The position numbers were made by a program, and so were the translations under genes. Under the pieces are notes generated by a model. The model searched no databases, had not been told where the DNA came from, and saw only the letters and a program-made list of their open reading frames with translations. 45,687 nt of DNA, from the NCBI GenBank assembly GCA_030426125.1, contig JAUHZB010000007.1, forward strand, positions 1-45,687, read 5' to 3'. This stretch comes from a bacterium (GTDB lineage Bacteria; Patescibacteriota; Saccharimonadia; Saccharimonadales; AWTP1-31). Positions 20,050 through 22,480 of this stretch are shown piece by piece (within the stretch, counting starts at the first letter, position 1; each line of letters begins with the position of its first letter).

Positions 20050-21888
20050 CTACTTTAAAGTTTTTACGAAATCGGAAAGCTCTTCAATCTTGATCTTCTG
20101 CTCATCATCACCAGTCCGTACGCTGACCTGACCACTAGCTTGATCTTTAGGCCCAACAATCAACAGTAGTGGTATCTTGAGTGCTACAGCGTCCTTAATC
20201 TTCTTACCTAGTGACTGGTTGCGTTCATCGGTGGTAAAGCGCAGTTCGTTGTGCCTTAAGGGTTTTTCTAAGACCACCCCAGACAATACTTCTTGTATTT
20301 GTTCCACGTAAGGCTTTACAGAGTCATTAATAGTCAAAATTCGGGCCTGTTCAGGTGCTAACCAGAACGGTAACCAGCCAGCAGTTTTTTCTAAGTAAAA
20401 GCCCATAAAACGCTCTAAGGAACCAAGTATGGCCCGGTGAATAATTAGCGGTTGCTGTTCTTTATTCTCGGAGTCTACGTATTTTAGTCCCATTCTGGCT
20501 GGAATCAGTAGATCGATCTGTGATGTAGCGATAGAATCTTCTTTTCCAAGCACATTTCTTGTTTGAATATCTACTTTCGGGCCATAAAAAGCGGCTTCAC
20601 CTTCGGCTTCTACAAAATCTGCGCCAAAGTCTTCCAGTGCACTACGAATGATATTACCAGCCTCTTGCCATGCCTGCTTGTCACCTTCAAACTTATCCTT
20701 GGCAAAATCTGGCAACGATAGTCTATACCAATAGTCTTCGATACCAAATACATCATAGACCTGCTTAAACATTTCAAGCACCTTTATAAACTCAGTCTTC
20801 AGTTGCTCAGCAGTTACATAAATATGGGCATCATTCTGAGTTATTGGCCCTCTAACCCTGATAAGCCCAGTAAGAGTACCGGAAAGCTCATGTCGATACA
20901 GTCCACTTTGCTCTGCTAACTTAAGTGGAAGATCGTTATAGCTAATAACTAACTTCTCGTAAAGCTTATGATGATGCGGACAATTCATTGGTGATACGTA
21001 GAATTTCTGGTCTTCAGAGTCAATGATGGTGAACATATCTTCAGCGTAGAACTGAGCGTGACCAGATTTTTGGTACAGTTTCTCATGAGCAATTACAGGT
21101 GTATCAACATAGGAGTACCCTTCAGCTTCTTCGATCTGTCGCATATAGCGACCTAGGAGCGTTTTAACAGTTGAACCTCTCGGTAATAGTAGCGGGAGCC
21201 CCTTACCGACGTCTTCGTTTATGGTAAATACTTTTAGCTGTTCACCTAGCAAGCGGTGATCGCGTGCTTTAGCCTCCTCTAACATCTTTAGATAGTCATC
21301 TAACTCCTGTTGGGTCTGGAAAGCAACACCGTACAGCCGCTGCATCTGAGGATTATCTTCTTTTCCGCGCCAATAAGCCCCGGCAATTTTTGTTAACTTA
21401 AAAACACCTACCTGAGAAGTGTTGTCTAAATGTGGGCCGCGACATAAATCGGTAAAAGGACCATTACTATAAAAAGAAACCTTTTCTATCTTACTTTGAC
21501 CTTCACCTTCAATGCCTAGCTCCTCACTAGCAATATCTTTAGCAGCAGTGGTACCAGCGCGCTTGAGATCATTTAATAACTCCAGCTTATACGGCTGGTT
21601 ATTCTCTTTCGCCCAGTTAATGGCCTGATCGATATCCATTTCAGACTTCTTGAACTCCTGCCCCTGTTTAATGATCGATTTCATCTCTTTCTCAATGACT
21701 TTAAAGTCGGCTTCAGAAAGAGTTACCTCACCTAGATCTAAGTCATAATAGAAACCATTTTCGATAACTGGACCGACACCAAACTTTACGTTTGGAAACT
21801 TCTTTTGCACTGCTGTAGCCATAATATGGGCTAGCGAATGTCGCATAGCGTGAAGTTTATCACTGTTTTGCTGATTTCTGGCCATCAT
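20050..21888 (-). CDS. thrS: threonyl-tRNA synthetase lacking an N-terminal TGS domain
   Basis: HSLAHIMATAVQKKFPNVKFGVGPVIENGFYYD editing domain; class II motifs; MNCPHHH. Confidence 0.96.
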   Translation of the reverse strand: MMARNQQNSDKLHAMRHSLAHIMATAVQKKFPNVKFGVGPVIENGFYYDLDLGEVTLSEADFKVIEKEMKSIIKQGQEFKKSEMDIDQAINWAKENNQPYKLELLNDLKRAGTTAAKDIASEELGIEGEGQSKIEKVSFYSNGPFTDLCRGPHLDNTSQVGVFKLTKIAGAYWRGKEDNPQMQRLYGVAFQTQQELDDYLKMLEEAKARDHRLLGEQLKVFTINEDVGKGLPLLLPRGSTVKTLLGRYMRQIEEAEGYSYVDTPVIAHEKLYQKSGHAQFYAEDMFTIIDSEDQKFYVSPMNCPHHHKLYEKLVISYNDLPLKLAEQSGLYRHELSGTLTGLIRVRGPITQNDAHIYVTAEQLKTEFIKVLEMFKQVYDVFGIEDYWYRLSLPDFAKDKFEGDKQAWQEAGNIIRSALEDFGADFVEAEGEAAFYGPKVDIQTRNVLGKEDSIATSQIDLLIPARMGLKYVDSENKEQQPLIIHRAILGSLERFMGFYLEKTAGWLPFWLAPEQARILTINDSVKPYVEQIQEVLSGVVLEKPLRHNELRFTTDERNQSLGKKIKDAVALKIPLLLIVGPKDQASGQVSVRTGDDEQKIKIEELSDFVKTLK

Positions 21889-21909: not shown

Positions 21910-22094
21910 AAAAAACACGCTTACCGCTGGTTGATTTAAGTATTCTCGTAACTATACTCAAAAACCGCCGTAGCGTGTCTTGGTCCTGTCTCCAGGAGGT
22001 TCCACCTAGACATTTACTCTTGTAAGCTGTTTTATACCCTTACCTTACCTTGTGCTGGGTTTGCTCATCGGTTGGTGAGTCCGAATCATTGCAC
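21910..22094 (-). promoter_or_regulatory. T-box riboswitch leader of thrS
   Basis: Stem I GTGC/GCAC; GTAAG/CTTAC stem; antiterminator GTCTAGG-[TGGAACC]-TCCT-ggagac-AGGA-CCAAGAC; terminator AAGACACGCT.../AGCGTGTTTTTT. Confidence 0.85.
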
Positions 22095-22098
22095 TGTC

Positions 22099-22125
22099 AG
22101 TATAGCACAGCTCCCCTGTTAGCAA
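22099..22125 (-). promoter_or_regulatory. thrS leader promoter
   Basis: Extended -10 TGCTATACT with -35-like TTGCTA upstream. Confidence 0.5.
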
Positions 22126-22403
22126 CTAATATTTTAGGTCCATAAAAGAAAAAAGATTGAATGATTTCGCATGACATTCAATCTTCTTTGGCTGGTTTTA
22201 AAAAACCTTCTCAAAACTTCACTTCATCAATCATAGCAGTGATAGCATTATAAGGCTAGTAAATTAGTATTGTTATAAATACACTACTATGTGTGTACAT
22301 CTCTTCACTATTTTATATCCTGTGTGATATATATTTTGGCCATGAGTATATCCTAAATTTTGCGACATAAAAAAAGACCTTTGATCTAAGGTCTTTGTTG
22401 CTA

Positions 22404-22480
22404 TGGTGGGCGATGCAGGATTTGAACCTGCCACCTCTTCAACGTCAATGAAGCGCTCTAGCCAAATGAGCTAATCACCC
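22404..22480 (-). tRNA. tRNA-Val(GAC)
   Basis: Acceptor GGGTGAT/ATCGCCC; anticodon arm CTTCA-TTGACGT-TGAAG; CCA encoded. Confidence 0.95.

Follow-up and report, generated by a model that had tools for sequence, protein, structure and literature searches.

A compact T-box-type leader upstream of thrS in a Saccharibacteria genome and its relatives across Patescibacteria

The thrS locus and its leader

The stretch of DNA considered here (the window, 45,687 nucleotides) belongs to a bacterium whose nearest named relatives are Candidatus Saccharibacteria, in keeping with the Saccharibacteria/CPR host proposed in a preliminary description made from the letters alone. On its minus strand, at 22097-21910, lies the leader of thrS, a tRNA-sensing element of the T-box type. 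From 5' to 3', the order is a -10 box, Stem I, the sequence ACCC, a GUAAG/CUUAC hairpin, a purine string, the antiterminator, the terminator and thrS itself, as follows.

22099..22104, minus strand: -10 box TATACT, from which, at the usual spacing, the RNA would begin near the base of Stem I
22061..22094, minus strand: ultrashort Stem I, consisting of C-helix UGC/GCA, 3-nt bulge AAU, tandem GA/GA (K-turn) and NC-helix UCGG/CCGA
22072..22080, minus strand: apical loop ACUCACCAA of Stem I, from the covariance alignment and coordinates
22074..22076, minus strand: specifier codon ACC (Thr) in the Stem I apical loop, from codon counts in 100 thrS leaders
22057..22060, minus strand: 5' half of a pseudoknot, ACCC (within AAACCCA), complementary to 22039-22036
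22022..22048, minus strand: GUAAG/CUUAC hairpin, placed as Stem II would be, with an apical GGGU (22039-22036) that pairs with ACCC
22013..22021, minus strand: purine string AAGAG-U-AAA, which fits RRRxG-(Stem III)-AA but has practically no Stem III
21977..22011, minus strand: antiterminator, A1 GUCUAGG/CCAAGAC and A2 UCCUG/CAGGA, from covariation
21998..22004, minus strand: T-box bulge UGGAACC, its UGGA complementary to the 3' UCCA of tRNA-Thr
21910..21981, minus strand: intrinsic terminator AAGACACGCU..AGCGUGUUUUUU with a U6 tail, its 5' arm common with the 3' arm of A1
20050..21888, minus strand: thrS, threonine--tRNA ligase, 612 aa (TIGR00418, 564 bits, cutoff 384)

Further upstream, a separate terminator at 22373-22396 (minus strand), just 3' of a tRNA-Val gene (22404-22480), sets that gene apart from the thrS leader.

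Distribution and comparative evidence

A covariance model, R1, was built from 14 thrS leaders of relatives. Among 293 order-level genomes, 125 have an R1 match, with one leader in each, and in the genome that contains the window the model gives exactly one strong match (E 2.9e-20), no second thrS-type leader being found there by the R1 search (next best E 4). In all 100 aligned R1 matches, thrS lies directly downstream on the same strand, at a median distance of 61 nt. Across the phylum, 51 of 382 Patescibacteria genomes (Saccharibacteria included) have matches; among those outside the Saccharibacteria, automatic parsing places an ACN specifier before thrS in 24 of 29. This compact T-box variant is widespread in Patescibacteria.

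Covariation across Saccharibacteria thrS leaders, which the preliminary description had proposed as a check, is present in every helix of the R1 structure. In 100 leaders whose alignment was fitted to that structure, so that pair counts lean towards it, standard pairs occupy 88.4% of pair cells, the shuffles reaching 70.8% and the structure slid by 1-3 columns no more than 44.6%, and two-sided changes occur at 27 of 27 pairs. The evidence from the codon, the K-turn, the terminator, the promoter and gene linkage is independent of these counts. Such comparative evidence is needed because free-energy folding is uninformative on the sensing half, which is no stabler than shuffles (z 0.31), and misfolds Stem I.

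Stem I, the specifier codon and the predicted 5' end

Stem I is about 34 nt long, with an NC-helix of 4 bp (UCGG-ACUCACCAA-CCGA) on the K-turn. Its helices 1 and 2 are 96.0 and 97.8% paired over the 100 leaders, with two-sided changes at 8 of 8 pairs, and the GA on the 5' side of the K-turn is found in 99 of 100. An unusually short Stem I had been noted earlier and is confirmed, though with other pairing than was then drawn. The original GTGC..CTCA/TGAG..GCAC helix is 59.4% paired in the 100 leaders as against 60.5% with shuffled letters, has a covariation of 0.078 as against 0.090, and is already disrupted in the closest relative (L005/L106, 81% identical). The first choice of specifier, the ACC of AAACCCA, likewise gives way to the ACC of the apical loop, AAACCCA sitting in the pseudoknot.

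At the apical position, the 100 thrS leaders carry ACC (86), ACG (7), ACU (6) or ACA (1), all of which are Thr codons, and the same loop position carries AUC before ileS and GGA or GGC before glyS. In several thrS leaders outside the Saccharibacteria, the loop reads CUACCAA where ileS leaders show CUAUCAA.

A TATAAT-like hexamer with at most one mismatch lies upstream of Stem I in 91 of 100 homologues, compared with 66 of 300 control windows, and its offset is equal within one base in 68 of the 100. This promoter sequence predicts a start of the leader RNA near the base of Stem I; since the -10 box sits beside that base, Stem I, on this prediction, probably does not extend into a longer stem.

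The pseudoknotted hairpin and the purine string

Between Stem I and the antiterminator, the GUAAG/CUUAC stem stands as first drawn and is, as helix 3 of the alignment, 80.5% paired with covariation at 5 of 5 pairs. Its loop pairs with the 3' flank of Stem I, as ACCC/GGGU in the window leader, CGU/ACG in most others and ACUAG/CUAGU in L033/L085. A Watson-Crick run of at least 4 is found in 47 of 86 homologues, against a mean of 27 and a maximum of 37 in 1000 permutations of loops between leaders, and in 6 when the loops of the same 86 pairs are shuffled. The pseudoknot thus joins the Stem I 3' flank to the loop of the next hairpin, a connection that differs from that of Class III Stem IIA/B. 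In a leader that lacks the elbow contact and the S-turn (the motif AGUAGA occurs in only 2 of 100 thrS leaders), any added contact or scaffold is most plausibly provided by this conserved pseudoknot.

The purine string follows the RRRxG-(Stem III)-AA motif as defined in PMC7583486: RRRxG with AA within 3 nt is found in 90 of 100 thrS leaders, and a real Stem III in about 9 of 100. Minimal thrS leaders occur in other Patescibacteria (L215, L224 and L242, at about 301-390); these have a K-turn Stem I, a short linker and the antiterminator, are without Stem II, and measure about 75-90 nt.

Antiterminator, tRNA complementarity and terminator

The antiterminator GUCUAGG-[UGGAACC]-UCCUG..CAGGA-CCAAGAC lies at 22011-21977 as it had been proposed. 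A2 is 96.7% and A1 84.6% paired, both with covariation, and the UGGA bulge is kept in 95 of 100 thrS leaders; neither a loss of A1/A2 covariation nor a loss of UGGN, either of which had been named as grounds for doubt, is seen in relatives. The pairing logic of UGGA with the UCCA end of tRNA-Thr also stands, with one correction to the partner: the tRNA-Thr in the window has the anticodon CGU, and the ACC-reading tRNA-Thr(GGU) is encoded in another part of the genome. The tRNA-Thr with anticodons GGU, UGU and CGU all end in UCCA, and among the 33 tRNAs of this genome that were read U73 is present only in those for Thr, Lys and Cys. Bulge and tRNA end agree for Thr (UGGA/UCCA), for Ile (UGGU/ACCA) and, in G402, for Gly (UGGA/UCCA).

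The terminator overlaps the A1 3' arm CCAAGAC, and the two folds are mutually exclusive, as the preliminary description had it. In isolation the terminator has a free energy of -27.8 kcal/mol, as compared with -10.5 kcal/mol for the antiterminator module of the window leader, and the minimum free energy structure of the tRNA-free leader includes the terminator; termination would therefore be the default, and the antiterminator would need stabilising. A stem of at least 8 bp followed by a U run and starting in the A1 3' arm is found in 87 of 100 leaders, against 6.6 expected from dinucleotide shuffles. A terminator loop U(U)GCGAGA is recurrent in Saccharibacteria outside this genus (e.g. L081, L090 and L091); it is not enriched in the present genome, where TTGCGAGAA has only 2 copies.

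This terminator bears on one alternative, a Class III T-box that controls translation and in which, as for actinobacterial ileS, the hairpin that follows would mask the ribosome-binding site. A short Stem I with an apical specifier is indeed the hallmark of Class III (PMC10482949), but the hairpin and U run that so often begin in the A1 3' arm, the scarcity of the S-turn motif and, in the window, a U6 run that comes before the start codon and a likely Shine-Dalgarno sequence that the stem does not include make translational control very unlikely.

Proposed mechanism

The thrS leader is very probably a transcription-attenuating T-box that responds to uncharged tRNA-Thr. Its elements, their covariation, the terminator overlap, the identity of the codon, the complementarity to tRNA and the linkage to thrS can all be read from comparison of sequences. 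The remainder is modelled on the known T-box mechanism, by which tRNA binding, the rejection of charged tRNA and the direction of the response would be as follows. Uncharged tRNA-Thr(GGU) would pair at two places, its anticodon with the ACC that the short K-turn Stem I presents in its apical loop and its 3' UCCA with the UGGA bulge; together these pairings would hold the antiterminator and keep the A1 3' arm from the terminator, allowing thrS to be transcribed. With charged tRNA-Thr, the 3' end could not be seated, the much stabler terminator would form and transcription would stop.

A conserved triplet in a hairpin upstream of thrS would also be expected if ThrRS regulated itself through a tRNA-like operator, as for Escherichia coli thrS, where the hairpin mimics the anticodon arm of tRNA-Thr and binds the synthetase. 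The triplet here, however, is a codon (ACN) rather than an anticodon (NGU), it differs between leaders in its third base while still specifying Thr, leaders of the same build have Ile and Gly codons before ileS and glyS, and a UGGA bulge and terminator are present, which leaves this explanation highly improbable. Ribosome-mediated attenuation by a Thr-rich leader peptide, which would fit a terminator, an antiterminator and a Thr codon upstream of thrS, is hardly credible with only one conserved Thr codon, held by a hairpin loop where the RNA is predicted to begin, with no space upstream for a ribosome-binding site, and it leaves the UGGA bulge unexplained. Both operator mimicry and leader-peptide attenuation were rejected, as the loop codons follow the gene.

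Family assignment and Rfam

A search with Rfam RF00230 by Infernal, the other check put forward at the outset, did not detect the leader of the window, even with E values up to 10 allowed. At the gathering threshold of 93 bits, RF00230 is above cut-off in 0 of 118 genomes of the order; its sub-threshold matches in Saccharibacteria are for the most part ileS leaders, among them L001 of the present genome, and within the same lineage they fall in ileS, glyS and one thrS leader. That thrS leader, L182, is matched by both RF00230 (E 5.3e-7) and R1, and the glyS leader L231 by RF00230 at E 0.0018. RF00230 being silent on the window leader, the family call comes from the purpose-built model, the correlation of specifier with gene, and L182; the R1 model, this correlation and the invariable linkage to thrS agree with the T-box family and thrS target first proposed.

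In the full texts searched, no T-box paper was found for Saccharibacteria or Parcubacteria, nor any mention of a T-box in Saccharibacteria or other Patescibacteria; subscription papers and preprints were mostly outside the scope of this search, and an earlier description is possible. A TBDB search for short-Stem-I forms covered only Actinobacteria and class I matches with a truncated Stem I (PMC7778990), and this scope, together with RF00230 scores below cut-off, would explain why the leader has so far been unlisted.

Relation to known T-box classes

Ultrashort Stem I elements with an apical specifier are already known from actinobacterial ileS leaders, which are mostly translational; they define Class III, which requires Stem II, whereas the transcriptional Classes I and II have a long Stem I (PMC10482949). 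As far as the Class III ileS leaders of Nocardia farcinica and Mycobacterium tuberculosis are set out in the accounts available (Sherwood 2015 via PMC7583486, PMC10482949), they have in common with the thrS leaders a short K-turn Stem I, the apical specifier, the UGGN bulge and the lack of an elbow-binding motif. Relative to those same accounts, the thrS leader differs in being Thr-specific, in having a transcription terminator and in lacking an S-turn Stem II, whose place is taken by a small hairpin that forms a pseudoknot or, in some relatives, is left empty; the thrS leaders are also mostly without Stem III, and their loop has 9 nt (7 in some) as against 5-6.

Class I thrS T-boxes of Bacillota (PMC12452182) share the gene, the Thr specifier and transcription attenuation, but have a long Stem I, an elbow-binding motif and an internal-loop specifier, none of which is present here, and are often arranged as tandem T-boxes (PMC12452182), in contrast to the single element of this locus. 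Class II glyQS of Bacillus subtilis is, as here, transcriptional and without Stem II, although its Stem I is long where that of the thrS leader is ultrashort. With RF00230 T-boxes in general, the leader has in common the UGGN bulge, the antiterminator and the overlapping terminator. A matching specifier, the UGGN bulge, mutually exclusive antiterminator and terminator, and a K-turn at the base of Stem I are all present, and likeness to Class III is confined to Stem I; the leader is therefore placed within the T-box family and outside its four described classes.

We lean towards regarding these leaders as a T-box class of Patescibacteria's own, in which an ultrashort K-turn Stem I and apical specifier are combined with transcriptional control, Stem II is a pseudoknotted hairpin or lost, Stem III is usually lost, and the genes served are thrS, glyS and ileS (the last with a fuller Stem II). 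If so, few tRNA-sensing switches would be smaller than the shortest Patescibacteria leaders, which span about 75-90 nt as far as the antiterminator. A 2020 review states that, as a rule, transcriptional T-boxes bind tRNA fast enough only with a long Stem I holding its elbow (PMC7583486), and a 2023 classification has short T-boxes needing Stem II (PMC10482949). As this lineage seems to do without both, it would offer a natural minimal system for studying the requirements of tRNA sensing. The leaders also point to likely control by tRNA charging in Saccharibacteria and other Patescibacteria, whose genomes are reduced.

Sister leaders and other T-box-like matches

Leaders of ileS in Saccharibacteria include L001 1501-1700 (C9 of the present genome), L179, L180, L183, L184 and L187-L190. 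They have an AGUAGA S-turn-like motif, a UGGU bulge and, in most, a hairpin GUGG-CUAUCAA-CCAC or similar with AUC in the apical loop. The 5' arm of the terminator lies within Stem III, upstream of the bulge, in about 10 of 15; this places the antiterminator inside the terminator loop, such that Stem III, and not A1, would compete with termination. Among the R1 matches in other Patescibacteria, the glyS leaders L226, L230, L231 and L240, whose apical loop carries GGA or GGC, precede a dimeric glycine--tRNA ligase gene confirmed by NCBIfam. An R1 match upstream of proS (L238) has an ambiguous loop and was left out of the specifier tally.

At L213 301-423, an R1 match with an ACU specifier lies upstream of a 196-aa ORF without an NCBIfam match, possibly a Thr-regulated gene of unassigned role. 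Among RF00230 matches, L185 and L191 have a UGGG bulge and lie before ORFs without identity, L195 lies before an argH-like ORF, and the strongest in the order is L176, at 89 bits.
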